From: an uncultured Methylococcaceae bacterium
Lineage (GTDB): Bacteria > Pseudomonadota > Gammaproteobacteria > Methylococcales > Methylomonadaceae
NCBI GenBank assembly: GCA_903945605.1
Contig: CAJAWH010000146.1
Coordinates: forward strand, 1 to 46,065
DNA length: 46,065 nucleotides
Direction of reading: 5' to 3'
A program made the position numbers and the translations under genes. Each line of letters begins with the position of its first letter. The first letter of the stretch is position 1. The notes beneath the pieces were generated by a model. It was given only the letters and a program-made list of their open reading frames with translations, had not been told where the DNA came from and ran no database searches. Of this stretch, positions 627 through 18,548 are shown piece by piece.

Positions 627-684
627 GTTATGGCACTGTGACGGCCTGCCGGTTTGCAGTCACAGCTATCCGCCTCCGGGTTAG

Positions 685-1315: not shown

Positions 1316-1330
1316 ATTAGTTACCATTCC

Positions 1331-1353
1331 GTACAGTATTTCTGTACATTATA
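1331..1353 (-). promoter_or_regulatory. Toxin-antitoxin promoter with operator palindrome
   Basis: GTACAG (1331-1336) and CTGTAC (1342-1347) form a perfect 6-bp inverted repeat with a 5-bp spacer. On the minus strand a perfect TATAAT -10 box (1353-1348) abuts it, so the palindrome covers the likely transcription start. This is the expected geometry for autorepression by a Phd-type antitoxin. I see no good -35 box. Confidence 0.55.
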
Positions 1354-1514
1354 GGCGTTTATTGTTTTTCGTTCAGATAATTTTTAGCCCAAGGGTACGC
1401 ACCAGCAAACCCGTTTTTCGATAGACCCTATAAAAACCGCAATACTGCCCACCATTGACAAGCCGGAACGGCTTAATCCAAACCTGCGGCAGCTAAGCGG
1501 GTTGGGGCGGTAAA

Positions 1515-2423
1515 TCACCCGATTGGCAACACGCTATGAAAATGCTGGTAATCCAAATAACGGTCGCCATTTTCAGCAACTGTTAGCATGTCGACAAACC
1601 GGCAGTTCCATAGTATTTCCTGTGCGGAATAGTTTTTTCTGGCGTTTATCGTATAGGCTACGGTTTCGTCAATGCCCACCAAGGAAACAATAATACCGGC
1701 GTGCCCTTGTTCCAGCATGGTGGGTGTCAGGCCATAAAGCGGGCTATTTTCGTCAATGACATGCCTAACCGTCCAAGCCAAGTTGAAGCTGGATGTGCGC
1801 TGGCGCAAAAGCGGCAATTCATAAAAGCGGCGGGTCAATTCACCTTCACGGGTGATTTGGTCTATGGCAAAATCTACTTTTATGTGGGCTTCGACAATCA
1901 GGTTGCGCCGCTCATTGGCGGCCCGAAACGCTAAGGTTGGCAGATCATTATAAGGTGAGATAACCGCAACATCACTGAAAATCACCCGTGCCTTGGGCTT
2001 GGTGAAGCGGGCAAAGGCTAGCCCTGTGACCATTGCTATGGCCAATAGGCTAGTCACTGCTTCTATGGAAACAATAATGTTGGCGTATAGCGTTTTGGGG
2101 GAAATGGCCCCATATCCAATGGATGCCAGCGTTTGTACGCTAAAAAAGTATGCGTCGGTAAACGAACCCGCTTTTGCGCCTGCCAAGCAATCGTCGCCAA
2201 GCAAATAAAAGACGGCAAATAATACATTTATCAAAGCGCAAACAAGCGTGACAGCAGCAAAAAAACCCAGCCAAGATATGTGTAGCATCAAATGGTAAGG
2301 GTCGCGTAAATAGGAATGCCAAGCATTTTTTTCATCCAGTTCCAGCCTGCCATCCCGATTGATCATTTTGGCGTAAGGGTTTGGACGGAATATTTTATTG
2401 AGGGCATCCAGTTTTATTTTCAT
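1515..2423 (-). CDS. Inward-rectifier-type potassium channel (KirBac family)
   Basis: 302 residues, close to the length of known KirBac proteins. Two membrane helices (about 48-75 and 112-140) flank a pore loop whose selectivity filter reads SIGYG (101-105). The family normally has T(I/V)GYG, so the first residue is Ser instead of Thr. The rest is the cytoplasmic Kir beta domain: ARVIFSDVAVISPYNDLPTLAFRAAN is a good match to the Kir hallmark region, split here for brevity. The protein should be a tetrameric inner-membrane K+ channel. It stands alone, facing away from the mod operon; the start has no clear ribosome-binding site. Confidence 0.88.
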   Translation of the reverse strand: MKIKLDALNKIFRPNPYAKMINRDGRLELDEKNAWHSYLRDPYHLMLHISWLGFFAAVTLVCALINVLFAVFYLLGDDCLAGAKAGSFTDAYFFSVQTLASIGYGAISPKTLYANIIVSIEAVTSLLAIAMVTGLAFARFTKPKARVIFSDVAVISPYNDLPTLAFRAANERRNLIVEAHIKVDFAIDQITREGELTRRFYELPLLRQRTSSFNLAWTVRHVIDENSPLYGLTPTMLEQGHAGIIVSLVGIDETVAYTINARKNYSAQEILWNCRFVDMLTVAENGDRYLDYQHFHSVLPIG

Positions 2424-2431
2424 TTAAAACC

Positions 2432-2621
2432 ATTCTAACTGATGTTACGCAAAGGGATATTTGTTTGTAGCAGGGTGACCAAAATAAAACCGTGCGTTCC
2501 TTGAGCGAAGCCGAAGGGAGCGCGGCAACCAAGCACAATGGTCAGGCAAGCCATTAGACTTTAACTGGGGCTTCGGCTACGGCTACGCTCAGCCAACGTG
2601 CTGCGTAACATCAGATTCTAA
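2432..2621. mobile_element. 176-bp MITE-like element, copy 1, with 7-bp target duplication
   Basis: The element spans 2439-2614. Its ends are perfect 13-bp terminal inverted repeats, CTGATGTTACGCA (2439-2451) and TGCGTAACATCAG (2602-2614). It is flanked on both sides by ATTCTAA (2432-2438 and 2615-2621), a perfect 7-bp target-site duplication. No coding frame is inside. An inner stem is possible between GAGCGAAGCCGAAG and CTTCGGCTACGCTC-type segments. A second copy of exactly the same length lies at 21386-21561. Confidence 0.85.
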
Positions 2622-2813
2622 ATTGGGCATTGTGGATTTAGTATAATCGCATCAAGCCTACCGTGCCATTTGAACTATAGTGGCCCGCGAAATCCGGAAA
2701 GTCCAAGAGTGCCGTGTTTCCCCAGCGCACACCCTAGCTATTTTGGCATTGTGCAGAAACTGATAACATCACCAACGGGCCTATGCCTGCGGCACAGCAT
2801 AAAAGCCAAGCGC

Positions 2814-2860
2814 TTGACAATCATGGGTGATGCGACGCAATATACTAAAGGTTATAGTGG
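2814..2860 (+). promoter_or_regulatory. Probable mod operon promoter with a ModE-like box
   Basis: A perfect TTGACA (2814-2819) is followed by CAATAT (2838-2843, 18-bp spacer) or TATACT (2841-2846, 21-bp spacer). The segment CAATATAC (2838-2845), five bases, GTTATAGTG (2851-2859) is an imperfect inverted repeat with TATA half-sites, resembling ModE operators, and it overlaps the -10 region. That would let Mo-bound ModE repress modABC. The rest of 2622-2898 shows no convincing gene. Confidence 0.4.
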
Positions 2861-2898
2861 TTTTTACCTTATCTTAATTGCCCTTATCTGGAGGCTGT

Positions 2899-3654
2899 AT
2901 GTTCCGTAACACTTTGCATTGCCTGTTATTCGCCCTGCTTTGCAGCCTGTCCAACCTCGCCAGCGCCGATGTGCTGGTTTTGGCGGCGGCCAGCCTGACC
3001 AACGCACTCGGCGATATCAGCAAAACCTATCAGGCCAAAACCGGTGAAAAAGTGACGATTTCGTTTGCCTCATCATCGGCACTGGCCAAACAAATTGAAA
3101 ACGGCTTGCCCGCTGATATTTTTATTTCCGCCGATTTGAAATGGATGGACTACCTTGGTGATAAAGGCAAAATTGATCGGGCATCACGCAGTAACTTGCT
3201 CGGTAACTCGCTAGTTTTGATAGCCCCAAAAGACCACGGCTTTACCGTCACCTTGGACAACGGTGGCAATTTGCCGGAGGCATTTACCGGCAAGCTGTGC
3301 ACTGGCGAAACCGAAACCGTACCCGTGGGCAAATACGCTAAACAGGCGTTGCAAACACTTGGCTTTTGGGATGCCCTTAAAGCCAGGATTGTCGGCACGG
3401 AAGACGTGCGCGCCGCTTTGGCTTTTGTCGAACGTGGCGAATGTGCCGCCGGTATTGTTTATAAAACCGATGCTTTGATCAGCCCCAAGGTGCAAGTGCT
3501 CGGCACTTTTCCCGAAAGTAGCCACCCTCCTATTGTTTACCCGATAGCCAGGATCAGCCAGACCGAACAGGCCAAAGCATTCTTGGCTTATCTGATCCAA
3601 GCGGAAGCTGCTAAGGTGTTTGCCCAATACGGCTTTACGCCCGTGCAACCTTGA
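2899..3654 (+). CDS. modA: Molybdate ABC transporter, periplasmic binding protein
   Basis: 251 residues. The ATG at 2899 has CTGGAGG at a good distance; the ORF extends 7 codons upstream, but that start has no such site. A signal peptide ends near SNLASA, giving a mature protein starting DVLVLAAASLTNAL, the ModA opening. SFASSSALAKQIENG and PADIFISAD are oxyanion-binding regions of the family. In the periplasm it captures molybdate (and usually tungstate) and delivers it to ModB. It is the first gene of modA-modB-modC-modE. Confidence 0.95.
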   Translation: MFRNTLHCLLFALLCSLSNLASADVLVLAAASLTNALGDISKTYQAKTGEKVTISFASSSALAKQIENGLPADIFISADLKWMDYLGDKGKIDRASRSNLLGNSLVLIAPKDHGFTVTLDNGGNLPEAFTGKLCTGETETVPVGKYAKQALQTLGFWDALKARIVGTEDVRAALAFVERGECAAGIVYKTDALISPKVQVLGTFPESSHPPIVYPIARISQTEQAKAFLAYLIQAEAAKVFAQYGFTPVQP

Positions 3655-3664
3655 TACCGCCAAT

Positions 3665-4357
3665 ATGTTGGATTTGTCCGAACAGGAAATAGCGGCCTTA
3701 CTGCTGTCCTTGAAGATTGCCGCGTGGAGTTCTGTGCTCAGTTGTCCGCCCGCTATCATTATCGGCTGGGTGCTGGCCCGCTTTCAATTCGCCGGTAAGG
3801 CCTTGCTGGATGGCCTTATCCATTTGCCGTTGGTGTTGCCGCCGATTGTGCCGGGCTATTTGTTGCTGTTGCTGTTGGGCAACAACGGGTTGTTGGGGCG
3901 CTGGCTCAACCAGCACTTTGGCATCAGCGTCGCTTTTAGCTGGCGCGGTGCTGTACTGGCTTCTATGGTGATGGCGTTTCCCCTGATGGTGCGTGCGGTG
4001 CGGCTATCGGTAACCACTATTGACCCGCGCCTGGAAAATGCCGCCCGAACTTTGGGGGCGAATCCTTTGCTGGTGTTTTTTTCCATTACCTTGCCACTGG
4101 CTGCGCCGGGCATTTTGGCAGGGCTGGTGCTGGGCTTTAGCCGCAGCTTAGGGGAGTTTGGCGCAACCATCACCTTTGTCGGCAATATTGAAGGCGAAAC
4201 GCGCACCTTGCCCTTGGCCATTTATACCGCCACACAAATGCCCGGTGGCGATGACCAAGCGGCACGGCTGGTTGTGCTGTCCATGCTATTGGCGCTGGCT
4301 GCATTGGCGGGCAGTGAGCTGTTAAGCCGTAAATTGCACCCCAAAACGGCTAACTGA
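3665..4357 (+). CDS. modB: Molybdate ABC transporter, permease
   Basis: 230 residues, the normal ModB length, starting at ATG 3665, ten bases after the modA stop. An ATG at 3620 is in frame but would overlap modA and add a non-membrane leader. Several hydrophobic helices are visible, and the ABC-contact loop reads ENAARTLGANPLLVFFSITLP. The ModB-specific C-terminal region GEFGATITFVGNIEGETRTLP is intact. It forms the inner-membrane channel that works with ModA and ModC. Confidence 0.95.
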   Translation: MLDLSEQEIAALLLSLKIAAWSSVLSCPPAIIIGWVLARFQFAGKALLDGLIHLPLVLPPIVPGYLLLLLLGNNGLLGRWLNQHFGISVAFSWRGAVLASMVMAFPLMVRAVRLSVTTIDPRLENAARTLGANPLLVFFSITLPLAAPGILAGLVLGFSRSLGEFGATITFVGNIEGETRTLPLAIYTATQMPGGDDQAARLVVLSMLLALAALAGSELLSRKLHPKTAN

Positions 4358-4359
4358 CC

Positions 4360-5049
4360 ATGCTGGACATCCATATCACTTTGGACAGGGGGGATTTTAC
4401 CTTAACGGCAAAGTTGCATAGCACGGCACTGGTCACCGGATTGTTTGGCCCGTCCGGAGTCGGTAAGTCCAGCTTGCTGCAAGGCATTGCCGGTTTGGTC
4501 AAGCCCCGGCAAGGTCATATCGCTATTGCCGGCGATACTTTATTTTGTTCCGCACAAGGCATTAACCTGCCGCCGCACCGGCGGCGCATCGGCTTTGTGT
4601 TCCAAGATGCTTTGCTGTTCCCACATTTGACAGTACGCAATAATTTGCTGTATGGTTATCGCCAGTTATCGGCAACGGAGCGGCGTTTGTCGTTGGATGC
4701 AGTGGTGGCTATTTTAGAAATTGGCGCATTGCTGGACAAAAGCCCACAACACCTGTCTGGCGGCGAAAAGCAACGGGTTGGTTTGGGGCGGGCATTATTG
4801 TCCAGTCCACGTTTGTTGTTGTTGGATGAGCCGCTAGCGTCATTGGACGAACGTCTTAAGCAGCAAATTTTGCCTTTTTTGTTACGGGTTCGTGACGAAT
4901 TGCAGATACCCATGCTGTACGTCAGCCACGCACTCCCGGAAATCCGTTACCTAACCGAACATATTGTAGGCATCCAGCCGGGCTTTATCGACTCAACCAT
5001 CCCGTTTTCCAGTTATGCCGACCCCAGTGCCCCCAACTCTGACCGCTGA
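4360..5049 (+). CDS. modC: Molybdate ABC transporter, ATPase (short form without TOBE/MOP domain)
   Basis: The ATPase half is complete: Walker A GPSGVGKSS (30-38), signature LSGGEKQR (132-139), Walker B LLLLDEPLASLD, and the switch His in VSHALPEI. Most ModC proteins are about 350 residues with a C-terminal TOBE/MOP domain that senses oxyanion. This one stops at 229, so that domain is missing. The frame runs into modE with a 35-base overlap, so it may be a natural short form rather than a frameshift. MOP domains are supplied by the next gene. Confidence 0.92.
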   Translation: MLDIHITLDRGDFTLTAKLHSTALVTGLFGPSGVGKSSLLQGIAGLVKPRQGHIAIAGDTLFCSAQGINLPPHRRRIGFVFQDALLFPHLTVRNNLLYGYRQLSATERRLSLDAVVAILEIGALLDKSPQHLSGGEKQRVGLGRALLSSPRLLLLDEPLASLDERLKQQILPFLLRVRDELQIPMLYVSHALPEIRYLTEHIVGIQPGFIDSTIPFSSYADPSAPNSDR

Positions 5050-5836
5050 TGGTAACCCGTTAATCCAGGGCGAAATCAAACTGATTGGCGGCCTTAACGA
5101 AAAGCTGTTCCGGTTGCTTGATGCCATTGACCATACGGGCTCCATCAACCAAGCAGCCAAAGCTGTGGGGCTAACCTATAAAGGGGCTTGGGAAATGGTC
5201 GGGCGTGCCAATAATTTATCGCCAAAATTGCTGGTTGCCACCGCCATTGGCGGCAAACAAGGCGGCGGCACCCGCCTGACCCCAGCGGGCAAAGCGTTCC
5301 TAAATTTTTTCAACGGCTTACAAGAAGAGCATCAGCGGTTTCTGATGCAACTGAACCAGCGCATAGCCAGTGATGCAGACATTATTTTTTTACTCAAGAG
5401 GTTAATCATGAAAGCAAGTGCACGCAACCAATTTTCCGGCAAAGTTTCAGAACTCAAGCTGGGCGCAGTCAGCGCAACCATTGTCATCCGCTTAAAAGGC
5501 GGTGAAGATATTGTTGCCAGCATCACCAAAGATGCCGCAGAAAAATTAGGCATCAAGCAAGGTGCTGATGTCATTGCTTTAGTCAAAGCCCCGCAAGTGG
5601 TCATCGTCACCGATTTTGGCGGCTATCAGCTGTCAGCGCGTAACCAACTGCAAGGCACGGTCACCCATATCCAACCCGGTGCGGTCAACTCCGAAGTGGT
5701 TATCGGTCTGCAAGGGGGCGACTCAGTGGCGGCAACTGTCACCAACGAAAGTCTGGAAACATTAGGGCTAGCCATTGGCAGCACTGCAACAGCCATATTC
5801 AAAGCCAGCGCCGTCATATTAGGCATTGCCGCGTAA
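5015..5836 (+). CDS. modE: Molybdate-responsive transcriptional regulator with two MOP domains
   Basis: 273 residues, close to the 262 of E. coli ModE. Residues ~20-125 form the winged-helix DNA-binding domain (DHTGSINQAAKAVGLTYKGAW, then GGKQGGGTRLTPAG). Two MOP domains follow, each starting SARNQ: about 133-200 and 207-272. With molybdate bound, ModE dimers repress mod transport genes. It overlaps the end of modC by 35 bases and is the last gene of the operon. An internal ATG at 5408 with its own ribosome-binding site could also give a separate two-MOP protein of 142 residues. Confidence 0.92.
   Translation: MPTPVPPTLTADGNPLIQGEIKLIGGLNEKLFRLLDAIDHTGSINQAAKAVGLTYKGAWEMVGRANNLSPKLLVATAIGGKQGGGTRLTPAGKAFLNFFNGLQEEHQRFLMQLNQRIASDADIIFLLKRLIMKASARNQFSGKVSELKLGAVSATIVIRLKGGEDIVASITKDAAEKLGIKQGADVIALVKAPQVVIVTDFGGYQLSARNQLQGTVTHIQPGAVNSEVVIGLQGGDSVAATVTNESLETLGLAIGSTATAIFKASAVILGIAA
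5396..5410 (+). promoter_or_regulatory. Internal ribosome-binding site and ATG inside modE
   Basis: AAGAGG (5396-5401) sits six bases before an in-frame ATG (5408-5410), just before the first MOP domain. Translation from here would yield 142 residues containing only the two MOP domains, the size and makeup of stand-alone molbindins of the ModG type. The use of this start is an inference. Confidence 0.35.
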
Positions 5837-5861
5837 CAGCCTCTTCAGCCTAGTGCATTAG

Positions 5862-5886
5862 GGTGGACACGCTTTTTGTGTCCACC
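5862..5886. terminator. Hairpin between convergent modE and the TSUP gene
   Basis: GGTGGACAC (5862-5870) and GTGTCCACC (5878-5886) form a perfect 9-bp stem with a T-rich 7-base loop. It lies between two convergent stop codons, so it may terminate both operons, though the T tract after the stem is poor. Confidence 0.55.
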
Positions 5887-5909
5887 TGTTTGGTGTCCTT
5901 TTGGGCTAA

Positions 5910-6719
5910 TTACTGCAAAACAAACTTAAGCCCGATCAGAATCAGGATGCTTGCCAAGGTGGGGCGCAAATAACGCTCAGGAATCTTCGCGCTCAAATGG
6001 CTGCCTATCCAAATGCCCGGCACAGACCCCAGCAACAGACTGCCCAGCAATACATAATCCACGTTACCCAATAACCAATGACCAAAACCGGCCACTGCCG
6101 TTAAAGGAATCGCGTGTGCCAAATCCGTGCCGACAATTTTTAAAGTGGACATTTTAGGGAACAAGAACAGCAATGCCACCGTGCCCAATGCCCCCGCCCC
6201 GACCGATGATAGTGTCACCAATACCCCCAACACCGCCCCAGTCAAAATAGTGGCAGGAATTTGCCACTTTTTAAAACGCCCGGTATTGTCGAAATTGCTG
6301 ATTTTATCATCCATTGGTTTGGCTTCTTCTACTTTACGCATCAAGATACTGCGATAAATCAGAGACACCGCCGTCAGCAACAAAGCAATGCCCAAGGTAA
6401 AAGTGATCGCCCCAGTGGTTTCTTTGCCCACATCCATAAAGTGTTTAATGGCAAACAGCGTGGCAACCGCCAAAGGCAAACTGCCCGCCGCTAGCCAAGC
6501 CACCGTTTTCCATTCGACCGAACCGTGTTTGTTGTGGTGTACCCAAACGCCACTGGTTTTGGTGATGGCTGCAAACAGCAAATCCGTACCCACCGCCACA
6601 GCAGGCTTAAAGCCAAACAAAAACACCAGCAACGGGGTCATCAACGAGCCGCCGCCCACCCCAGTAATGCCCACCAGTATACCTACCAATAAGCCAGAAA
6701 GCGTATAACCATAATTCAT
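5910..6719 (-). CDS. TSUP (TauE/SafE) family permease
   Basis: 269 residues from the ATG at 6719, which has AAGGA seven bases upstream; the ATG at 6728 lies on that site and is less likely. The N-terminal GILVGITGVGGGSLMTPLL and the second half-repeat (LSSVGAGALGTVALL) are the duplicated TSUP motif, with about 7-8 membrane helices. Members export sulfite or sulfoacetate, or move other small organic or sulfur anions. The substrate cannot be told from sequence. Convergent with modE; no neighbour clarifies its role. Confidence 0.85.
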   Translation of the reverse strand: MNYGYTLSGLLVGILVGITGVGGGSLMTPLLVFLFGFKPAVAVGTDLLFAAITKTSGVWVHHNKHGSVEWKTVAWLAAGSLPLAVATLFAIKHFMDVGKETTGAITFTLGIALLLTAVSLIYRSILMRKVEEAKPMDDKISNFDNTGRFKKWQIPATILTGAVLGVLVTLSSVGAGALGTVALLFLFPKMSTLKIVGTDLAHAIPLTAVAGFGHWLLGNVDYVLLGSLLLGSVPGIWIGSHLSAKIPERYLRPTLASILILIGLKFVLQ

Positions 6720-6734
6720 CAGCACCATCCTTTT

Positions 6735-6757
6735 GTCAGGTCAGGTTAAGTTAAGTT
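6735..6757. repeat. Short 5-bp-period repeat upstream of the TSUP gene
   Basis: Upstream of the TSUP gene the sequence reads GTCAG, GTCAG, then GTTAA three times. This lies in its 5' untranslated or promoter region; no function is evident. Confidence 0.4.
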
Positions 6758-6862
6758 AACCCGTCACTCTACCAACAAAAGGGCAGTATTTTTAATTGCC
6801 AAAAGTTATATGATTATTCCATTTAGTTATTTCTGTGGTTTGTAAAAGCTAGCCGTAAGATA

Positions 6863-7411
6863 TTAAATTGCTCCGCTAAACAACACCCATGCCCTTGCCC
6901 ATTGCTTATCCAAACAAACCTGCCCAGCCTGATGTGTCAACACTTTTCCGGACACAAGCTTAAGCAGCCTTTTGCTGCAATGCGTACTCAACCGGGGACA
7001 CACGCTATTGGCTGAATGTAATCGCTCCCGGTTGTAAAACACTTCAATATATTCAAACACCGCCTGCCTGGCCTCTTCTCGATCCAGAAACTGCTGCTGA
7101 TGAATCAGTTCTGTTTTCAATGTATGAAAAAAGCTTTCTGAAACAGCGTTATACCCAAGGGGCAGACTCTCCCAACAGTTGCCTTTACGGCTCATGCTCT
7201 GGCGGAAGCCATATTGCTTCAATAGCCCCCTGTGGCCCTCATTTGCCGGTTTACGCTTAAATAATAGTGCATCATTCACCAGCTTGAGCGTATTGGCGTT
7301 GATGCCTAGCTCTTTAGCGACCCCGGTGATCGATTGGCTGGATCCGTTCGCTAATTTAACCGCTGACGCTCTGAATTTCGCTGTATAGGTGTTTGGCTTT
7401 TCTCTGCTCAT
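6863..7411 (-). pseudogene. Broken IS3-type transposase (OrfA start fused to OrfB end)
   Basis: The N terminus ([21 protein letters not shown]) is the helix-turn-helix start of an IS3-type OrfA. After ~40 residues it jumps into the middle of OrfB ([13 protein letters not shown], then [12 protein letters not shown] and [11 protein letters not shown]), so most of the catalytic core is deleted. Near the last catalytic acidic residue there is an extra 18-base in-frame insertion bounded by TTGGG repeats (ESLPLG in the protein). Near the end the frame shifts: the proper OrfB ending ([12 protein letters not shown]) is found in another frame, stopping near 6960. It cannot make an active transposase. 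Confidence 0.75.
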
Positions 7412-7466
7412 GTGGACCCACAGTTTTTTTACATATTGTAATTGTGTGTCCGGTTTAGTATAACCA
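6935..7466 (-). mobile_element. Decayed IS3-family insertion sequence remnant
   Basis: A ~530-bp relic of an element normally over 1.2 kb. The ends share CCGGACACA in inverted orientation (6948-6956 and 7445-7453); extended to 22 bases starting TG, 15 positions match. I found no convincing target duplication, so the outer boundaries are approximate. It contains a broken transposase and lies beside the SIR2 gene pair. Confidence 0.6.
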
Positions 7467-7483
7467 CGTCATTATGCACTATT

Positions 7484-7591
7484 ATGCGCTTGGAATCCGC
7501 GATGCAAAGTATGGCAAGGCTTGGTTTTAAAGCCGTCACAGTGCATTACCGGCAAGGTGTGAATGCACTGGTTAGTGGGCTAAATCCGTAA
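7484..7591 (+). pseudogene. Possible small gene fragment between IS remnant and SIR2 operon
   Basis: A 35-codon frame (MRLESAMQSMARLGFKAVTV...) ends in TAA at 7589. It is open further upstream into the IS end and looks like the C-terminal tail of a protein cut off by the insertion. I do not recognise the family, and it may be chance. Confidence 0.2.
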
Positions 7592-7668
7592 ACAACAATC
7601 AATATAAGTGACTGTTTTAAATTATTTTAAATAGCGGTCATCTGAAATTTTTCTCAGTATCCCATACT

Positions 7669-10350
7669 CTAGTTGCGACGGGCTGCAGTAGCCAAGCGTC
7701 GAAATTTTTTATTTTTCTCTAGCTTAGGATTTACTTCTCGAATTTGTGCCAACGCGTTTGACAAATCATAAGGGATAATGGAGCGTTCCGCTGTCCCTAT
7801 AGTTAGATTGAGAAGCCGTAAAAATGCTTCTGCTTTTTCAGGACTGTCTATAGTTGAAAGCTTATCATCACTGTGAAGCCCATAATCAGCCATTAACCAA
7901 CAATCAAATGGTATCAGAAATCTTTCTATGATATTCATAGCCTCCACAAATGCTTCTTGGGAGATCGCAGGAAGTTTTGCAAATGCCCGGCTGATTCCCT
8001 GCGTAGTAAGTGAACGCTCCTGAGGCCATACCTTGTCTAGAAACTTGGCGGCGGAATGGAAACATTGTTCAGGTGAATCTTCTACAAATTCCACTACGGT
8101 TTTCGCAGCCTCTAATCGCATCTCATCTTCAAGACATCGGATCAACTGCTGGATACTTGCCAATGGTATCAATAGCGTTGTCTTGTCTTTGAAATAGTGT
8201 AAGCAAGTAACTACAATTTTAAATACCAAGTACTGCCTAGTCTCTCTATCTAACCTTAAATCGGTTGCGCGTTGCACCATTGGTTTGCCTAAAAGCTCCA
8301 TTAGAGCCGATGTAATAAACTCTTGGCGAGCAACTGCCCGCCACAGTATTAAGGCTTCGTTGCTATCATCCAATAATGGGGCAACAAGTTTATTTTTAGC
8401 CCACTCATTGTCAGCCGCCATAAAATAAGGCATTTCTAAAACCAGCCTGTATTTTACAATCAGGACAGTGTCCGGTGATTGGTCAATAGCATCACGCATT
8501 GCACGATGCATACTTTCTCCATTAAAAAGATTGTCTCTTGACGGTGTAATTGGACAAGCTGATAGAAAAACCCCAACCAATTTTCCAACTGGTGTGTTGT
8601 GAGTGTCCAAGTCTTGTGGCTTTTTCTGACTTGAAGAGCGAACTGCCATATTCAGGATTTGTTCATCTTCAATCGATTGCTTCCTGTTAGCGGCTTCAGC
8701 GACCTCGACTGCTATAGGCCAAAGCTTTAGCCATACCTCCAGCCCTTGGGGTAAAAGCACGACTTGCTTTGCCCATGTGGATAGCCATTGGGATATGCCT
8801 TCTATGGCTAGTCGGGTAGCACCCTCTGAAAGCTTGGAGATTAGCGATAAGACACGACCGCACTCACTATCCGTCATGCTTTCAGAGGGTTTGTGCGTCC
8901 AACCGAACCAATCCCAAACGCGATTGAATGCACTTCCTCCCTCCGAGACCGATTCAAAATCGGAAAGCACTTCGGTGATATTCACTGGTAGTCCTATCCA
9001 GTTCCTTGCACGTTCTGCAGGATCGTTATCCCAGCTACCACGAGCTGCCCCCAGCGCATCTTCTAAAGCTTTTAAACGCTTTTCACCAGTCATCAAATCA
9101 TACCGGCTGTCTGGATTCGGTTTTACCCACTGAGCTTTTGGGGATGTTAGAAAACCTTCGTCAATTCGATCCGATTGAAGCAAGTTAGGGAATTGCGGTA
9201 TCATTTCAGCCAACCAAGCTTCATCATGCTGAAGAAGAGACACGCCTGAGCTTTTTATACGATGTAACTCCTGAACAGCGCAGTAGAGACGAGCTTTTGC
9301 TTTATTATCGTCATTAGCCAAGCCAGGCCATAAGCTATTAGGTGGTTTATTTTTGATACGGGTAATGATAGCCATCTGGTCTTGTAAATCAAATTCCCCA
9401 AACCGCTTTGCCCGTAATTCAGCTATCTCAGGATAATTTTGTACATCCCAAAATTGAAGATCGCTAAGCGAGTGCAAGAAAACACTAACATCAGCTACTG
9501 GCGTAATTCTATAATCCCGTGATATTGCCGCCCAAAGGCGAATATAGACTGGGGTATTTGTAACTTTCCATCGAGAAATAAATCCTTTCGCGGAAGAAAT
9601 ATCAATCTCTACGAGCCGCGATACAACTGCATACAAGAGCTTAACAGATGGGGCAATGCCTTTATGAAACCTGTCCGGATCATAGTCGCTGTTTTTAAGC
9701 TCGGCGTTTAGGACAAAATAAACACGATGCAATTGCCCTAATCGCCACATTTGAACCTCTTCACCACCCCAAAGGCGTCGGGCAAGATTTAATCCCTTAG
9801 CTACAGCTGCTTCCAAACTTGTAGCTAACTCTGACAGAAATAAGCTGTCATTCAAAGATCCCAACAAATCAAGTATATCTGAATCATTAGTTTCACCGCT
9901 TGTGACTTGTAGAGAAAACAGAGTGTCAACTGTTTTCGGTCGCTTAGGTAATTTTAGGTAGTGAACAGCCCGATCAGAAAGCGGTTCGACCTTGAGTTGT
10001 GGTGAAACAAGTTTAACTATTAACATGATGAGTGCCCCAGATCGCTCTCCGTCACTCAGTCGTTGCTTTATAATATATGCTCCCATTGCTAAATGTTCAT
10101 CAATTTGATGATGTGACCAGCTTTCTTCAATTAAACGCCAGCCACTAAGCCAAGGTTCATGTAATTTTTGTTCAACTTGAAAGCCATCGATTAGATCAAG
10201 TATTGCAAACCGTTTAGCGGTTTCATCCGGTTTTAATTGCAATGCCCAATCGATAGTTGCCCGCTCTTCCAGACGACCTTGCAGAAACTCAATTGTTACA
10301 AAGTACGCTTTCCTTTCTCGCTCATTAAGCGTTGGCCAGCGGGGTCTCAT
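7669..10350 (-). CDS. Large helical partner protein of the SIR2 gene, unknown function
   Basis: 893 residues with no motif I recognise: no Walker A, no nuclease signature, no membrane segment and no signal peptide. The sequence is rich in Leu, Ala, Glu and Trp and looks all-helical throughout, with an arrangement suggestive of HEAT/TPR-like repeats. It ends in a basic tail (KLEKNKKFRRLATAARRN). Its ATG overlaps the SIR2 gene stop by four bases (ATGA), so the pair is co-translated. By eye the DNA is more AT-rich than its neighbours, consistent with transfer. It may be a sensor or scaffold that controls the SIR2 effector, like the helical C-terminal parts of single-chain defence sirtuins; this is inference. 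Confidence 0.75.
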   Translation of the reverse strand: MRPRWPTLNERERKAYFVTIEFLQGRLEERATIDWALQLKPDETAKRFAILDLIDGFQVEQKLHEPWLSGWRLIEESWSHHQIDEHLAMGAYIIKQRLSDGERSGALIMLIVKLVSPQLKVEPLSDRAVHYLKLPKRPKTVDTLFSLQVTSGETNDSDILDLLGSLNDSLFLSELATSLEAAVAKGLNLARRLWGGEEVQMWRLGQLHRVYFVLNAELKNSDYDPDRFHKGIAPSVKLLYAVVSRLVEIDISSAKGFISRWKVTNTPVYIRLWAAISRDYRITPVADVSVFLHSLSDLQFWDVQNYPEIAELRAKRFGEFDLQDQMAIITRIKNKPPNSLWPGLANDDNKAKARLYCAVQELHRIKSSGVSLLQHDEAWLAEMIPQFPNLLQSDRIDEGFLTSPKAQWVKPNPDSRYDLMTGEKRLKALEDALGAARGSWDNDPAERARNWIGLPVNITEVLSDFESVSEGGSAFNRVWDWFGWTHKPSESMTDSECGRVLSLISKLSEGATRLAIEGISQWLSTWAKQVVLLPQGLEVWLKLWPIAVEVAEAANRKQSIEDEQILNMAVRSSSQKKPQDLDTHNTPVGKLVGVFLSACPITPSRDNLFNGESMHRAMRDAIDQSPDTVLIVKYRLVLEMPYFMAADNEWAKNKLVAPLLDDSNEALILWRAVARQEFITSALMELLGKPMVQRATDLRLDRETRQYLVFKIVVTCLHYFKDKTTLLIPLASIQQLIRCLEDEMRLEAAKTVVEFVEDSPEQCFHSAAKFLDKVWPQERSLTTQGISRAFAKLPAISQEAFVEAMNIIERFLIPFDCWLMADYGLHSDDKLSTIDSPEKAEAFLRLLNLTIGTAERSIIPYDLSNALAQIREVNPKLEKNKKFRRLATAARRN

Positions 10351-11576
10351 CGTTCACCTTCTCTATTATGTTCCATAGCAATGCTAACAATGGCATCGAG
10401 CCAATCTATGTCAGCTTTATGCTTGGATACCAACCCTGATATCCGGACTTGTTCATTGTGGTCGTTCCCATTCCGGCGAATGAAATGATCAAATAAATCC
10501 CTGTCCGCATCGCTGGCAAGACTTCGCTTTATTTTGACGATACGCTTTATTTCTGTATCTACAGCTCGCTTATTACCATTGATGACTGATAAAACAGCCC
10601 ATCGTTTTAATGTATTAAGCAGTGCTTCATGCCCATTCGCCTCACTGTAGGGTATAGGTGTTATGCCCCTTCCCCGCCAATCCTTCAAGTCAATTGGATC
10701 CTTCGAACTGGTAAAGATGAAACGTTCCTTCACATCCTCGAAGCGATTGTCATCTGCGGCAACAGCATTTAAGAGGTATCTCATTGGTGCATCGTTGGCA
10801 CTGTAACCAATAAGAACAAGGTGGAATAACCGGGCGGCATCGTAGATAAAATCAGGCACGATTCTTCGCCGTAGATAAAATTCGCCAAAATCCTGGTCCG
10901 AAACGATAATATCGGAAAGTCTTTTAGGATTACGGTCTAATGCGCCGTGGATATGAAAAACACCTGCAAAGTCATCATTGAGTGCTGGCCTTGGAATTCC
11001 TCCCAGCGTATATGTGTTAACAGCCGTGCCTGACCTTTTGGTAGCTTCCTCTAAAAGTAAATCGAAATTGGTTGTTACAATCGCTTTTGCATCGCCACGA
11101 TCGGCCAAACGTATAAGGGTATGATGAATGGGGGCAGGCTTTATTCCTGGTTTACGGAGCAGATCGACCAAAACACGCCTAACGGTACTATTGGAATCAG
11201 TTCGTCCATCCATACGCCGTTCAAGCATTCCCAAAACAACATCGTAATCTCCGCTAATGAATCTCTTCACCTCAGCGGCCTGAGCGGGACCAAGACTTGC
11301 TTTGTCGACTTCCCAAAGATTACAAGCAACTTGAGGAATTTTGGAAATAACTTCGTACACAGGCGGATCTAGCTGCTTATAGGCTGCAATGACGAGTTCT
11401 CGAAAATCAGGCAATCCTGCTGGTTTGGATATTCCTGCCCCTGTTATAAAAAGAACTTTTCCTTGTGCATGGGCAAGAAGCAGACGTTCAGGGATAGCAG
11501 CCAATCCGACACCCAATGAAATTTGACGGCTATATATATCAATTTGGCTTTCTGATTTCTGAGTAGATACTTTCAT
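10347..11576 (-). CDS. SIR2-family protein, probable NAD-consuming defence effector
   Basis: 409 residues. The N-terminal half is a SIR2 Rossmann fold with the key NAD-site residues: GAGIS (46-50) followed by PAGLPDFRE, TTNFD (168-172), the catalytic-type His210 in FHIHGALD, and GYSANDAPMRYLL near 257. There is no Zn-binding Cys cluster of classical deacetylases, as in defence SIR2 proteins that hydrolyse NAD. The C-terminal ~130 residues are helical. It is the first gene of a two-gene operon with the 893-residue protein. Related known systems include the Dsr sirtuins, Thoeris ThsA and SIR2-HerA; none has this exact pairing as far as I can tell. The start has no strong ribosome-binding site. 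Confidence 0.85.
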   Translation of the reverse strand: MKVSTQKSESQIDIYSRQISLGVGLAAIPERLLLAHAQGKVLFITGAGISKPAGLPDFRELVIAAYKQLDPPVYEVISKIPQVACNLWEVDKASLGPAQAAEVKRFISGDYDVVLGMLERRMDGRTDSNSTVRRVLVDLLRKPGIKPAPIHHTLIRLADRGDAKAIVTTNFDLLLEEATKRSGTAVNTYTLGGIPRPALNDDFAGVFHIHGALDRNPKRLSDIIVSDQDFGEFYLRRRIVPDFIYDAARLFHLVLIGYSANDAPMRYLLNAVAADDNRFEDVKERFIFTSSKDPIDLKDWRGRGITPIPYSEANGHEALLNTLKRWAVLSVINGNKRAVDTEIKRIVKIKRSLASDADRDLFDHFIRRNGNDHNEQVRISGLVSKHKADIDWLDAIVSIAMEHNREGER

Positions 11577-11792
11577 CGTTCAACAGAGCCGGTTTTTAAC
11601 AGACGTTATTCCAACAAAACCAAAATCATATTGCGGCTTCTAGAATCGACGGATTTCAATTACCCATTGATGTTATGCAGTCTGTTTTTTCGAACGCTAC
11701 AAGTACCAGAGGCTACAGGGGTAATAAATTGGCATTATCTACTGTTGGTTTTCTTTGGGCTTGACAAAGGGAGGGTATGGTTTTTTTCAAAA

Positions 11793-12419
11793 CTATCTTG
11801 TTGCAACTTTCCTTTCCAATTGCGCCAACAACTCGGCAATCACCTGGTGTTTCATTTTCATCGCGGCCTTATTCACCACCAAGCGCGAGCTGATGTGCAT
11901 AATCAGCTCGCGTGGCTCAAGGTCATTAGCGCGTAAGGTGTTGCCGGTTTCCACCAAGTCAACAATACAATCAGCCAAGCCCACTAAGGGTGCAAGTTCC
12001 ATTGAACCGTACAGTTTAATGATTTCCGCTTGCACCCCTTGGGCGGCAAAATACTGTTCGGCAATCTTCACATATTTGGTGGCGACGCGCACCCGCCCCG
12101 TAATGGGCGGCGCATTTTTATGGGCAGCGGTCATCAACCGGCAACGGGCAATTTTTAAGTCCAGCGGTTCATAAAGGTTTTCCGCACCATGTTCGATCAG
12201 CACATCTTTACCGGCAATACCCAAATCCGCCGCCCCGTACTCGACAAAAGTGGGCACATCAGTGGCACGGATAATCACCAACTGCACATCGGCACGGGTG
12301 GTGGCCAGAATCAGCTTGCGTGAGGTATTCGGGTCATCGGTGGGGATAATGCCCGCTTCAGCCAATAGCGGCAATGCTTCGTCGTAAATGCGGCCTTTCG
12401 AAACGGCAATTGTCAGCAT
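11793..12419 (-). CDS. hisG: ATP phosphoribosyltransferase, short form
   Basis: 208 residues, the short HisG type, which lacks the C-terminal regulatory domain and normally needs HisZ. It makes phosphoribosyl-ATP from ATP and PRPP, the first step of histidine synthesis. The start ATG at 12419 has AAGG eight bases upstream; an upstream TTG at 12425 is less likely. Family blocks are [28 protein letters not shown], and a PRPP-binding loop in [16 protein letters not shown]. Last gene of the mla-murA-hisG operon, 16 bases after murA. HisZ is not in this window. Confidence 0.95.
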
Positions 12420-12435
12420 AGTCAAACCTTAAACC

Positions 12436-13707
<1,272 letters not shown>

Positions 13708-13715
13708 TCAAATAG

Positions 13716-14045
13716 TTAGGTTTGGTTTGAGTCGGGCCAACAGACCTTGGCAAAGTAGGGGCTATTTTCCAAGCCACTGAGCTTTGCTAGCGTAAGCAAT
13801 TGCTGCGGGACATTTTTAAAACTTAAAGACAAGCGTTGCTCACGGGCATATTTTATCCACTCGATCATCAGTGCCAGTCCGGCACTGTCGGCACTGGAAA
13901 CGGCTTGCAAGTCCAACACAACTTCTTTGCTATGGTTGGCACAGCTAATCAGCTTGATGGTTTTGTGGTCAATAGTCGCAAAAGTGAGCGTTCCGGAGAC
14001 TAGGAAAACACCGTTGCCTTGATGGCTAATGGTCAGGCCGCTCAT
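13716..14045 (-). CDS. mlaB: STAS-domain protein of the Mla lipid transporter
   Basis: 109 residues with a STAS fold: VVLDLQAVSSADSAGLALMIEW is the signature with the conserved Asp-Ser. In the Mla system the STAS protein binds the MlaF ATPase and controls transporter assembly. It overlaps mlaD by four bases (ATGA at 14042-14045) and precedes murA. MlaC, which normally lies between mlaD and mlaB, is not here. Confidence 0.85.
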   Translation of the reverse strand: MSGLTISHQGNGVFLVSGTLTFATIDHKTIKLISCANHSKEVVLDLQAVSSADSAGLALMIEWIKYAREQRLSLSFKNVPQQLLTLAKLSGLENSPYFAKVCWPDSNQT

Positions 14046-14509
14046 TTTTTTTCTTCTGCGGCTTTAAACAAAAATTGCCCAATGGCCTTTTCAAGGATGA
14101 TTGCCGATTGGGTGATTTCAATTTTGTCTTGGTCTTTCAAAATGGTTTCGGAACCACCCGCTTCCAGATTGACATATTGTTCACCCAATAACCCCGCCGT
14201 AAAAATACTGGCGGTGGTGTCATCCGGAAAGGTGTTGTAATGGCTGTCGATATGCATTGCCACTACCGAATCATAGGTTTTAGGGTCAAAAGAGATAGCA
14301 ATGACTTGACCAATTTTGACACCGGCAGCGGATACCGGTGATTTGACTTTTAAGCCGCCGGAATTTTCAAAGCGGGCGGTGAGGGTATAGGTGTCGTGTT
14401 CAGCATAAGCACTGAGGTTACTGGCCTGAAAGGCCAAAAAAAACAAACCGGCAATGCCTGCGGCTACAAATAGCCCGACCAGCGTATCTTGAGTGGGTGA
14501 GTGCGACAT
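14042..14509 (-). CDS. mlaD: MCE-domain substrate-binding protein of the Mla transporter
   Basis: 155 residues from the ATG at 14509, which has GGAG nine bases upstream; an ATG at 14518 overlaps the mlaE stop and sits on that site. One N-terminal membrane anchor (VGLFVAAGIAGLFFLAFQ) precedes a single MCE domain (TARFENSGGLKVKSPVSAAGVKIGQV). MlaD hexamers form a ring that receives or hands over phospholipids between the MlaFE complex and the periplasmic carrier. Confidence 0.93.
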   Translation of the reverse strand: MSHSPTQDTLVGLFVAAGIAGLFFLAFQASNLSAYAEHDTYTLTARFENSGGLKVKSPVSAAGVKIGQVIAISFDPKTYDSVVAMHIDSHYNTFPDDTTASIFTAGLLGEQYVNLEAGGSETILKDQDKIEITQSAIILEKAIGQFLFKAAEEKK

Positions 14510-14510
14510 G

Positions 14511-15293
14511 TCAATCATCTCCGAACATGAGGGCGGTTAAAATAAAATCGAGTCCTAAAACGCTAAACGCCGAGTTGACCACGGTACGGGTAGTGGCCCG
14601 GCTGACACCTTCTGCGGTGGGCGTGGCATCGTAGCCTTCAAATAAGGCGATCCATGTGGTGACAAAACCAAAGGTGATGCTTTTAATGATGCCGTTGACA
14701 ATATCATCCTGAAAATCAATCTTAGCTTGCATTTGCGCCCAATACGCACCGTCATCGACCCCCAACAAGCCGGAACCGACCAGTTGCCCGCCTAAGATGC
14801 CAATGGCGCTGAACAATCCCGCCAACAGCGGCATCGCAATCAGGCCTGCCAAAAAACGCGGCGCAATAATGCGCTGGATAGGGTCAACCGCCATCATTTC
14901 CATGCCGGACAGTTGTTCGGTGGCCTTCATCAGGCCAATTTCGGCAGTCAGGGCGGAACCGGCACGACCGGCAAACAGCAGGGCGGACACCACTGGCCCC
15001 AGTTCCCTGACTAACGAGGTGGCGACCATTAACCCCAATGATGCTTCTGCACCAAAGTCAGATAAGGTGTAATAGCCCTGTAAACTGAGCACCATGCCCA
15101 CGAACAGGCCGGAAATGGTGATGATAAGAAAGGACAATACACCGACGGAATACAGTTGGTTGAGCAGCAATCGCGGACGCGGTATCACACTGCCGATACC
15201 GGACAAGGTTTGCAGCAAAAACCGTGTGCCCCGCCCTAGCTTGGCAAAACTGCCACGGGTTTGGTTGCCGAGTAGTTGCAATTGTTCGATCAT
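14511..15293 (-). CDS. mlaE: Permease of the Mla phospholipid ABC transporter
   Basis: 260 residues, the usual length for MlaE permeases. Several helices are visible; the conserved cytoplasmic segment ELGPVVSALLFAGRAGSALTAEIGLMKATEQL is the family hallmark (given here in words: GRAGSALTAEIG, then ATEQL). It acts in the inner membrane with MlaF (ATPase), MlaD and MlaB in retrograde phospholipid traffic that keeps the outer leaflet asymmetric. It lies 18 bases after mlaF and ends at the start of mlaD. Confidence 0.95.
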   Translation of the reverse strand: MIEQLQLLGNQTRGSFAKLGRGTRFLLQTLSGIGSVIPRPRLLLNQLYSVGVLSFLIITISGLFVGMVLSLQGYYTLSDFGAEASLGLMVATSLVRELGPVVSALLFAGRAGSALTAEIGLMKATEQLSGMEMMAVDPIQRIIAPRFLAGLIAMPLLAGLFSAIGILGGQLVGSGLLGVDDGAYWAQMQAKIDFQDDIVNGIIKSITFGFVTTWIALFEGYDATPTAEGVSRATTRTVVNSAFSVLGLDFILTALMFGDD

Positions 15294-15311
15294 GTTAAAC
15301 AGACAAAAGGG

Positions 15312-16139
15312 TTAATAACGTTTTCCCGACAACAACAGGTCATCAAAATAATCTTTAGCGGGGTAATGGAAATGCACGGGGCCGTCAGCTGTGCCGTTCA
15401 TAAACTGCTGTATCCATGCCGATGATGATTGGCGAATGGCTTCAGGCGTACCTTGACCAATGATTTTTCCATCAGCAAGCACATAGATATAATCGGCAAT
15501 AGCCGAGGTTTCATGGACATCATGCGACACGATAATACTGGTCAAACCCAATGCCGAATTCAGTGACTTGATCAGATGCACCAATACGCCCATGGAAATG
15601 GGGTCTTGACCGGTGAACGGTTCGTCATACAAAATCATCATCGGGTCCAAAGCAATGGCACGGGCCAAAGCAACCCGCCGTGCCATGCCCCCCGACAGCT
15701 CGTTAGGCATAAAATCTTTAACGCCGCGCAAACCGACCGCCTGCAATTTCATCAACACCAGCGAACGGATCATCGTTTCCGGTAAACGGGTGTGTTCACG
15801 CAACGGGAACGCCACATTATCATAAACGTTCATGTCGGTCAGCAAAGCCCCGCTTTGGAATAACATGCCGATGCGCTTACGCAATTGGAACAGCTGCTTG
15901 CGTGGCAATTGGTGGACATTTTCCCCATCCACCACAATTGTCCCTTGTGCGGGCGGCAATTGCCCCCCGATCAGCTTCAACAAGGTTGTTTTGCCGGTGC
16001 CGCTAGGCCCCATGATGGCGGTGATTTTGCCGCGTTCAAAATCCAAGGAAACATTATCGAAGATAACTTTAGGGCCACGGGAAAATGACAGGTTACGAAC
16101 AGAAACTAAGCTATTTTGATTGGAAACGAAGGTATCCAT
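15312..16139 (-). CDS. mlaF: ATPase of the Mla phospholipid ABC transporter
   Basis: 275 residues from ATG 16139; a TTG at 16160 adds seven residues and is less likely. Motifs in order: Walker A GPSGTGKTT, Q-loop QSGALLTDMN, signature LSGGMARRVALA, Walker B MILYDEPFTGQDP, switch His in IVSHDVHETSAI. It hydrolyses ATP to drive the MlaE permease. It is the first gene of mlaF-E-D-B-murA-hisG; no clear Shine-Dalgarno is visible. Confidence 0.95.
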   Translation of the reverse strand: MDTFVSNQNSLVSVRNLSFSRGPKVIFDNVSLDFERGKITAIMGPSGTGKTTLLKLIGGQLPPAQGTIVVDGENVHQLPRKQLFQLRKRIGMLFQSGALLTDMNVYDNVAFPLREHTRLPETMIRSLVLMKLQAVGLRGVKDFMPNELSGGMARRVALARAIALDPMMILYDEPFTGQDPISMGVLVHLIKSLNSALGLTSIIVSHDVHETSAIADYIYVLADGKIIGQGTPEAIRQSSSAWIQQFMNGTADGPVHFHYPAKDYFDDLLLSGKRY

Positions 16140-16319
16140 GCGTGGCAAGAAATAGTCCAAAACACAGTATTGTCCACGACTATGGATTCTTAAGTCAATG
16201 CATTAACTTTACAATAATGCCCGGATACTTTAACAAGCCGTTGCCGTGGGCGAAGATCATGGCGTACAGCTTGCGGTCAGGTGTTTATGAGGGGTGCTAC
16301 TGGCGCATTTTTTCCTTTA

Positions 16320-17975
16320 TTATGCAGGTTGCCGGGCGATTGATTGTTTGGCGGCAACCACCGCATCATCGACACTCCAAAACAGTGTATCCTCAAATTG
16401 CCCTGTTGCCAGATTAAGCAACAACTCCCTGATCGGGTCTTTTGCCCTGGCCAATAGTAGCCGTATATTTTGCCGGTCAAGGGTGTTGGCCAGCTCCAAC
16501 AAGCTTTCCGCTGCTGTACTGTCAAGATTGGCGCTTTGTTCCAAGCTGACGATAAGCACTTGCACCGCATGGGCTTTTTTTAAACGGCTGGCAATTTCCG
16601 ACAGCACCCCCTCAACACTGGCAAAAAACAGCGGCTCTTCAGGCCGTAAAATGAGTATTGCCTCGTGGGGCTGGGCATTAGGGTGGTTTTCCCTATCCAC
16701 ATAATCGCGGGAATCGCCCAGCTCTGCCAACTCCCTGACTTTGGGCCGGCTAAATGAACGTATCGCCGAAGCTAAAGATAGGCCAATGGCAATCAACATG
16801 CCGTGCAATACACCAAAAATCAACACTGCCAGCACTGCTGCCAAGGCCAAGTACTGGTCGCGGTTTATCCGCCAAAGATAGAGCAGGGCTTTGGGGTTGG
16901 CGGCGTGGCTTAAGGCGTTGATGACCGCAGCGGCGACAATCGGTTCTGGAATCAATGCCAGCCAAGGCCGTGCAAAAATGACCACCAACAACAGCATTCC
17001 GGCGGCAAATGCACCGGCCCATTTGCTTTGCGCCCCTGCCTGTTCGTTGGCGGAACTGGCGGAAAAACCAGCACCCACCGGCATCCCCTGCAATAACCCC
17101 GCCAGCAGATTGGCCGCACCTAAGGCAAATAGCTCCCGGTTAGGCTCCACGGTACTGCCGTGGTTCAGTGAGAGGCTACGGATGCTGCCCCAAGATTCGG
17201 CGACGATAATCACCAGCAAGCCACAAGACATTTCGCCCAGTTGCAGCCATTTTTCTAAGGGCAACACGGGTACGTTAAAATTCGGGGCGGTTAGTGCTAC
17301 TGGGCCGACCATAGCAATCGGCAAATTGGCAAAGTCCGCCGCGCCACTCAGTACAATGCCGGACACCAACACCACAAAAGCACCCGGTACGGCAGGCCAA
17401 CGCTTTAGCAAGCTTAATAAAGCCAAAGCCCCCATACCAATAACAGCGCCCCAGCCCATCCCTTGGTAGCTGCGCTGCAACAGCTCCAAGATAATTTGCC
17501 AAGGGGCGGTGGCTGCAACGGGGATGCCCAATAGGATAGGCAATTGTTTGGTGATAATGGTGACTGCCAACGCGAATGAAAAGCCATGCAGCACCGGACG
17601 GGAAACGAATGCCGATAGCCGTCCTAGCCCCGCCTTGGCAAACACCAACAAACCGGCGCCGGTCAAAATGACCAAGGCAAAGCCCAAATCAGCCGCCGCA
17701 TTGCCATCGGGCGGATGTAAAGACAGCACCACCGCTGCCATCAGAGCCGCTGCCGACGACGTGGGGGCGACAATGGCAAACTGGCTACCGCCCAGCCATG
17801 CATAACAACTTAAGCCAATCAGCAAGGCGATAATGGCATGTTGGATGCCCAGATGGGCAATGGCGGCGTAGGCAATGGCCTCTGGCAGCAAAATACTGGC
17901 AACCGACAAACCAGCCGCCATATCCGGCAACCATAACCGTTGCCCTGCCAGGCGGGCTACTGTTTTCCTCAGCAT
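16320..17975 (-). CDS. SulP-family anion transporter with C-terminal STAS domain
   Basis: 551 residues from the ATG at 17975; the longer frame to 18062 would overlap the upstream gene by 71 bases. The membrane part opens with LPDMAAGLSVASILLPEAIAYA, the SulP signature region, and has many helices to about residue 410. A STAS domain follows (EAILILRPEEPLFFASVEG, then VLIVSLEQSANLDSTAAESLLEL). Family members carry sulfate, bicarbonate or other anions, often with Na+ or H+. The substrate is not determinable here. Sixteen bases separate it from the ParB-like gene, so they are likely one operon. Confidence 0.9.
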   Translation of the reverse strand: MLRKTVARLAGQRLWLPDMAAGLSVASILLPEAIAYAAIAHLGIQHAIIALLIGLSCYAWLGGSQFAIVAPTSSAAALMAAVVLSLHPPDGNAAADLGFALVILTGAGLLVFAKAGLGRLSAFVSRPVLHGFSFALAVTIITKQLPILLGIPVAATAPWQIILELLQRSYQGMGWGAVIGMGALALLSLLKRWPAVPGAFVVLVSGIVLSGAADFANLPIAMVGPVALTAPNFNVPVLPLEKWLQLGEMSCGLLVIIVAESWGSIRSLSLNHGSTVEPNRELFALGAANLLAGLLQGMPVGAGFSASSANEQAGAQSKWAGAFAAGMLLLVVIFARPWLALIPEPIVAAAVINALSHAANPKALLYLWRINRDQYLALAAVLAVLIFGVLHGMLIAIGLSLASAIRSFSRPKVRELAELGDSRDYVDRENHPNAQPHEAILILRPEEPLFFASVEGVLSEIASRLKKAHAVQVLIVSLEQSANLDSTAAESLLELANTLDRQNIRLLLARAKDPIRELLLNLATGQFEDTLFWSVDDAVVAAKQSIARQPA

Positions 17976-17991
17976 AGCGGGTTTTGCCCTG

Positions 17992-18369: not shown

Positions 18370-18548
18370 GGTGAGTTTGAACTGTCCGTTAGTTAAGCTT
18401 ATTGCCAGCCAGGCCCAGATAATCCAGATAATAAGGTGGCAGTGCCGCGCTGTTGTTTACCCTTTGCCCGGGATTGCTTGGCAGCATTAATGTTTTGCCC
18501 CCGGTATCTTGTTGATTTGACTTTTTATGGTGCATACAACAACCTATT

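Follow-up and report, generated by a model that had tools for sequence, protein, structure and literature searches.

Positions 7669 to 11576 of contig CAJAWH010000146.1, a stretch of 46,065 nucleotides (nt) from an uncultured Methylococcaceae bacterium (the window), carry two overlapping genes, one for a SIR2 protein and one for a large, nearly all-helical protein, which together are colinear at the sequence level with the single-chain defence protein Dsr1, both parts being homologous to it and in the same order. We read the pair as a horizontally acquired two-gene phage-defence cassette, in which a Dsr1-type sirtuin would be made as two proteins coupled in translation, the large one serving as the sensor, and give this reading a probability of roughly three in four. 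The source bacterium is probably a methanotroph, since its genome encodes a gene of the AMO/pMMO family (Pfam PF02461, E 6e-130).

Two genes colinear with single-chain Dsr1

7669..10350, minus strand: large, nearly all-helical subunit of 893 amino acids (aa), which is colinear with Dsr1 over its C-terminal two thirds; predicted sensor
10347..11576, minus strand: SIR2 subunit, 409 aa; predicted NAD-hydrolysing (NADase) effector
10347..10350, minus strand: ATGA stop-start overlap of the SIR2 and large genes, four bases common to both

The two open reading frames (ORFs), their lengths and the four-base overlap are exactly those described in an earlier note on this DNA, which was made from its letters alone and had guessed at a Dsr-type protein split over two genes. 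In the profile comparison which that note had proposed, the SIR2 protein matched positions 10-328 of NCBIfam Dsr1 (NF041818; E 2.7e-53, 181.1 bits) and the large protein positions 638-1262 of the same model (E 1.5e-26, 92.5 bits). The two proteins therefore correspond to two parts of Dsr1 in order, and the relation would be to Dsr1 in particular, which narrows the earlier guess. PADLOC also assigned Dsr1 to each half, both matches of the large protein being Dsr1 (E 8e-15). Using hhalign, columns 20-895 of 21 split large proteins were aligned with 430-1278 of nine single-chain Dsr1 proteins (probability 99.7, E 1.1e-26), and the SIR2 set (8-345) with 6-320 of single-chain Dsr1 (E 2e-48); from these ranges, the gene break falls at about Dsr1 residues 320-430, directly after the SIR2 domain. 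A single polypeptide of about 1250 aa was not encountered, as the window and all 27 other loci described below have two ORFs. Because the single-chain form and the curated cut-off are both missed, the pair is, judged by its sequence, a two-gene variant of Dsr1 and is not filed as Dsr1 itself. No description of a two-gene Dsr1 was recognised in the available portions of the open-access literature searched, and searches of the PDB with the large protein and with the Dsr1 profile revealed no solved Dsr1 structure.

The same split in distantly related bacteria

The search for other genomes with this pair, also proposed in the earlier note, yielded 27 other loci at which the junction was checked (21 on genome contigs, six on plasmids), and in every one of them two genes are divided at the same place. 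As both genes recur together in all 27, they are not a chance pair of ORFs. By tblastn the large protein was found in nine plasmid records, six of which cover 80% or more of its length with identities of 29.5-43.0%, and the plasmid relatives come from Bradyrhizobium, Agrobacterium, Sinorhizobium and Rhizobium. To obtain the 21 genome loci, five split proteins were aligned and genome contigs were scanned with the result; the scan relies on short peptide patterns and may miss loci, and 21 is a minimum. Their hosts are Desulfuromonas, Candidatus Nitrospira defluvii, Pseudomonas, Xanthomonas, Stenotrophomonas, Bradyrhizobium, Bosea, Rhizobium, Mesorhizobium, Agrobacterium, Devosia, Brevundimonas, Caulobacter and others, the split loci being distributed over Pseudomonadota, Nitrospirota and Thermodesulfobacteriota. 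Identity to the window over 20 relatives amounts to 38-64% for the SIR2 protein and 26-50% for the large protein.

At the 28 junctions, the window's included, the distance from the SIR2 stop to the large-gene start is −4 nt in 15, +1 in ten, −1 in two and 0 in one, where the large-gene starts were chosen among candidate start codons and several loci have more in-frame starts nearby. The relative frames differ between lineages (−4, −1, 0, +1), which speaks against a conserved programmed frameshift or readthrough. In one locus (L055, 6950-6955), the TAG stop of the SIR2 gene and the ATG of the large gene are adjacent and in one frame, so that readthrough would fuse the two proteins; this is the sole such case of the 28.

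In a sample across the phylum, the Dsr1 model matched 44 of 398 genomes at E 0.001, nine of them above the cut-off. Among the 23 of these matches inspected besides the window's own, two are split (genomes G316 and G325, the latter being the same genome as that of locus L053 and not independent), and single-chain Dsr1-type genes are the commoner form. In G316, a 403-aa SIR2 ORF is followed by large-gene homology that begins 57 nt past its stop. A class sample searched with the split profile gave four of 369 genomes, namely the window's own and three with weak matches to other Dsr1-type genes.

Dsr1-type genes divided elsewhere were also seen. Locus L080 (genome G322, 2097-5922, minus strand) has a Dsr1-type gene divided nearer the C-terminus into 876 and 400 aa with an 8-nt overlap. 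Locus L083 (genome G500, 3495-12976, minus strand) carries two tandem Dsr1-type genes, each in two ORFs (645 + 618 and 705 + 492 aa), as well as a 248-aa C-terminal part of a third; these divisions, at different places, are signs of decay or else show that Dsr1 was divided independently on further occasions.

Phylogeny and selection

In the tree of SIR2 sequences, a branch with a support of 100/100 separates 24 fused-type rows from the 27 rows of split type, which are the window, L068, 21 genome loci and four of the six plasmid loci. Among the fused-type rows, L006 is represented by the 301-aa piece before its first stop, the 876-aa ORF of L080 was counted as fused, and L079 duplicates L011. 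The split SIR2s also group together in a second tree, which was computed without L006, L079 and L080 and with an outgroup from eight loci, of whose ORFs four qualified, two of them being the same protein. With end branches of 3-8, the SIR2s of this outgroup lay too far away, and they did not fall on one side of a branch; the tree was left unrooted and therefore gives no order between fission and fusion.

Pairwise distances of the SIR2 and large proteins were closely correlated (r 0.97, 276 pairs from 24 split loci), and none of 2000 permutations reached as high a value. Alignments A2 and A3 were made without L060 and the plasmid loci. For selection analysis 13 pairs were chosen, and in the seven close pairs with unsaturated synonymous divergence (dS) the ratio of nonsynonymous to synonymous divergence (dN/dS) was 0.06-0.41 for the SIR2 gene and 0.11-0.23 for the large gene, showing purifying selection on both genes in these close relatives by codon comparison. 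The large protein is more diverged than the SIR2 protein in all 13 pairs. By these comparisons, the split is old and kept.

The SIR2 subunit

The SIR2 protein matches Pfam SIR2_2 (E 1.8e-19), and all the NAD-site motifs that had been claimed for it were found, namely GAGIS, TTNFD, HG (as HIHG) and GYSxxD (as GYSAND). Residues G46-A47-G48, S50, T168-D172, H208-G211 and G257-Y258 are invariant among 21 aligned SIR2 sequences, the window's included. The catalytic Asn and His of SIR2 NADases are both present, as N170 and H210, their DSR2 equivalents having been numbered by hand along the HMMER alignment to the DSR2 chain.

10947..10949, minus strand: His210 codon (HIHG), equivalent of DSR2 H171 by the HMMER alignment to the DSR2 chain; invariant in the 21 sequences
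11067..11069, minus strand: Asn170 codon (TTNFD), equivalent of DSR2 N133 by the same alignment; invariant in the 21 sequences

N133 and H171 are the pair that was mutated in DSR2 (PMC10973363; statements from this and the other papers cited here are drawn from the portions of their text that were available). The predicted structure of the SIR2 subunit had a mean local confidence (pLDDT) of 80 and a predicted template-modelling score (pTM) of 0.81. With this model, Foldseek returned KomC, DSR2 and ThsA as the best solved folds, KomC being the first match both by Foldseek and by sequence. We predict the SIR2 subunit to be an NAD+-hydrolysing effector.

The large subunit

The large protein, which the earlier note had placed in no recognised family, indeed had no Pfam match at E 1, and it is annotated as a hypothetical protein on five annotated plasmid loci (as two pieces on L037). 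Conservation is best in the last 253 residues and in residues 281-320, whereas residues 321-640 are the most variable. Its predicted structure is nearly all helix, with a pLDDT of 81 but a pTM of 0.51. The best Foldseek matches of this model were transportin-3, importin-13 and CAND1, which are HEAT-repeat proteins. As modelled, the large protein may form a HEAT-like superhelix, which is not a family assignment. A search of PDB sequences with the large protein gave no match at E 1, to DSR2 or to any other chain.

Foreign arrival of the pair and its genomic site

6863..7411, minus strand: IS3-family transposase fragment adjoining the pair, 182 aa long where the model has 369 positions (NF033516, E 3.3e-26; model positions 293-360 match best)
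11793..12425, minus strand: hisG, core gene at the upstream border (Pfam HisG, E 2e-55)

The earlier note had taken the pair for an inserted island, AT-rich by eye, with a remnant of an insertion sequence (IS) on one side and hisG on the other. Both borders were identified as such, the IS3 fragment forming the downstream border and hisG lying 216 nt from the SIR2 gene. The AT-rich look was borne out by count, with a GC content of 44.0% over 7669-11576 against 51.0% on either flank, and a GC content at third codon positions (GC3) of 0.36-0.37 in the pair against 0.51-0.67 in nine further ORFs, among them the IS fragment. Just one weak partial match to the large protein, in a genome of another family, was detected in 60 related genomes, and none in 19 genomes of the same genus. 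Of these 19, 18 have hisG, and these were compared at this site together with one genome of the same family. murA and hisG are adjacent in all 19 site genomes, and the pair is absent at hisG from every one of them. The deviant composition, the lack of the pair at the same-genus hisG sites and the near-absence from the 60 related genomes uphold the island claim and show, on compositional and distributional grounds, that the pair is of foreign arrival.

Among the 18 same-genus genomes, hisD directly follows hisG in nine, and in eight (L087-L091, L093, L098 and L104) the gap is filled by a cassette of ∼1.7-2.6 kb; hisD is located downstream of hisG in 17 and was not found in the stretch examined of the remaining one (G007). 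Seven of the eight cassettes consist of an AAA ATPase and a small partner (an assignment made by eye, on the first residues, for three of them), and the eighth of a PIN-domain gene and a 403-aa gene. The L091 cassette matches A and B of the PADLOC candidate system PDC-M38 (E 9.3e-140 and 4.5e-76). Three other cassette ATPases tested against PADLOC gave weaker matches (best E 8e-21 to 1e-26). At E 0.01, neither Pfam nor PADLOC matched the small partners of L087 (172 aa) and L089 (160 aa), and for the two genes of the PIN cassette PADLOC gave nothing convincing. In the window's genome (G000), hisD and the genes after it are located on another contig than murA-hisG (C87; L107, 5593-6897), with hisD well inside it and beside other genes, so that hisG-hisD is broken in this genome. 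Given this break and the variety of hisG-hisD cassettes, the pair probably arrived at a spot that takes up cassettes repeatedly; the island claim is thereby refined, in that the hisG-hisD gap of this genus takes up other cassettes too. A rearrangement may have occurred near the IS fragment.

The genome has a single copy of a 271-base stretch across the gap between hisG and the SIR2 gene, and a search for attachment-site repeats at the borders gave just short, unconvincing ones. No RNA element was detected at gathering threshold in window positions 1-20000. A promoter and terminator scan, which was not used, gave 12 promoter-like sites where 8.7 were expected and one terminator-like site where 4.1 were. 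At 685-1104 (minus strand), a 139-aa ORF has the look, by eye only, of a VapC-like PIN-domain protein.

Neighbouring genes were inspected around the 21 genome loci, and PADLOC matches at E 1e-10 or better were obtained near six of them for nine of ten flanking ORFs, which had been picked by eye from 191 and without a control. These are type I restriction (L043), Zorya A and B (L046), Gabija A and B (L054 and L057), Aga_TIR (L055) and mads (L059); the ORF picked in L045 had no PADLOC match. The defence genes represent a co-location in six of 21 loci and not an enrichment. In three Agrobacterium plasmids (L034, L036 and L037), two of them named pTi, the pair is located between tartrate-use genes and a DNA methylase/methyltransferase gene.

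Proposed mechanism and alternative explanations

By analogy with DSR2, the division of the two-gene form would place the effector on one protein and the sensor on the other. On its own, the SIR2 domain of DSR2 has no activity, and the phage tail tube protein does not pull it down; the C-terminal region suffices to bind the tail tube protein, and NAD+ is cleaved by full-length DSR2 together with the tail tube protein (PMC10973363); the binding cavity is formed by the HEAT and C-terminal regions (PMC11263360). In the window's pair, the SIR2 subunit may be held inactive by the bound large, HEAT-like subunit, which would sense a phage component, possibly a structural protein such as the tail tube. 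Recognition would then lead to rearrangement or assembly of the SIR2 subunits, cleavage of NAD+ and arrest of the infection. The tail tube as trigger is an analogy only, because DSR1 and DSR2 have limited C-terminal similarity (PMC10973363), and the available portions of the open-access literature searched yielded no account of phage sensing by Dsr1.

Several observations weigh against the reading of the pair as a Dsr1-type defence cassette. The scores of both proteins are far under the 1400 bits that NCBIfam sets for Dsr1. The Foldseek matches of the large model are weak (E about 1e-4, TM score about 0.2) and mostly of importin and CAND1 type, and DSR2 is absent among the 50 matches listed for it. 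For the window's own pair dS is saturated, its divergence from the relatives exceeding the range of the dN/dS measure. The large gene is damaged in two of the 27 relatives, being annotated as two pieces in L037 (pTiAg57) and cut short in L060, where 758 of 893 query residues are matched. The defence-gene neighbours are an uncontrolled choice. Searches of viral contig and phage collections gave no relative of the pair, on which ground phage or prophage cargo was rejected. Finally, DSR1, a SIR2 NADase system that inhibits phage, is described as stopping phage without cell death, unlike other SIR2 systems (review PMC10952713), which would not suit plain abortive suicide.

A bolder proposal, which we find possible but doubtful, is that the pair represents a separate class of two-component defence sirtuin, whose fast-changing sensor protein would arm a free-standing SIR2 NADase in trans. 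If this were true, stoichiometry could be uneven and one sensor could switch on many effectors, which is impossible for a single-chain Dsr1.

The pair might instead resemble a toxin-antitoxin module, the large protein doing nothing but restrain the SIR2 NADase, whose release would follow from loss of the partner and not from direct sensing. Adjacent coupled genes, an enzymatic small partner and the faster change of the large protein would all suit such a module. We nevertheless judge it improbable, as a known single-chain system has a C-terminal part to which the large protein is homologous, and the DSR2 SIR2 domain is inactive when alone (PMC10973363).

Another explanation keeps the two-protein Dsr1-like defence and has the SIR2 subunit modify a protein or make a signal instead of depleting NAD+. 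SIR2 folds support several chemistries, and the SIR2 model resembles KomC and ThsA as well as DSR2. The nearest homologous system by sequence, Dsr1, is listed as an NADase (review PMC10952713), and we hold a different chemistry to be quite improbable.

That a single-chain Dsr1 gene was broken by a frameshift or an assembly error in the window's genome is hardly credible: the single-chain form is the commoner one among the genes inspected and oddly divided Dsr1 genes do occur (L080, L083), but all 27 other junctions are split as well, with relative frames that differ between lineages, the split SIR2s form one branch, and purifying selection acts in close relatives. A non-defence metabolic or regulatory SIR2 operon is equally hard to credit in view of the patchy distribution, the low GC content, the variable insertion spot and, in some relatives, plasmid carriage and defence-gene neighbours.

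Comparison with known systems

If the pair is the two-subunit Dsr1-type cassette that we propose, its arrangement, recurring in distantly related bacteria, offers a natural form in which effector and sensor can be expressed, mutated and swapped separately, so that the sensor role of the helical part and the switching of SIR2 become directly testable. It also exposes an annotation gap: the large protein matches nothing in Pfam, lies below the NCBIfam Dsr1 cut-off and is called hypothetical on annotated plasmids, and counts using full-length Dsr1 may therefore miss the split branch.

In Dsr1, as in the pair, the SIR2 part comes first and a long stretch with homology to the large subunit comes after it, and the SIR2 motifs are common to both; unlike the pair, Dsr1 is one chain: its models have 1248-1275 positions, and it is called a single-gene system (PMC10973363). 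DSR2 of B. subtilis, for which solved structures exist, shares the N133/H171 equivalents and the combination of a SIR2 effector with a long helical part, its sensor region having HEAT repeats (PMC11263360, PMC10973363), but is likewise one chain. Sir2-HerA (Nezha) and SPARSA resemble the pair in having two genes, one for a SIR2 protein and one for a separate partner (PMC10952713, PMC11514479); this partner is a HerA ATPase in the former and a prokaryotic Argonaute in the latter, whereas in the window it is helical, of Dsr1 type and unmatched in Pfam. KomC of the KomBC system is a stand-alone SIR2 protein like the SIR2 subunit, but has 264 aa against 409 aa in the window, where the SIR2 protein is paired with a Dsr1-type protein.

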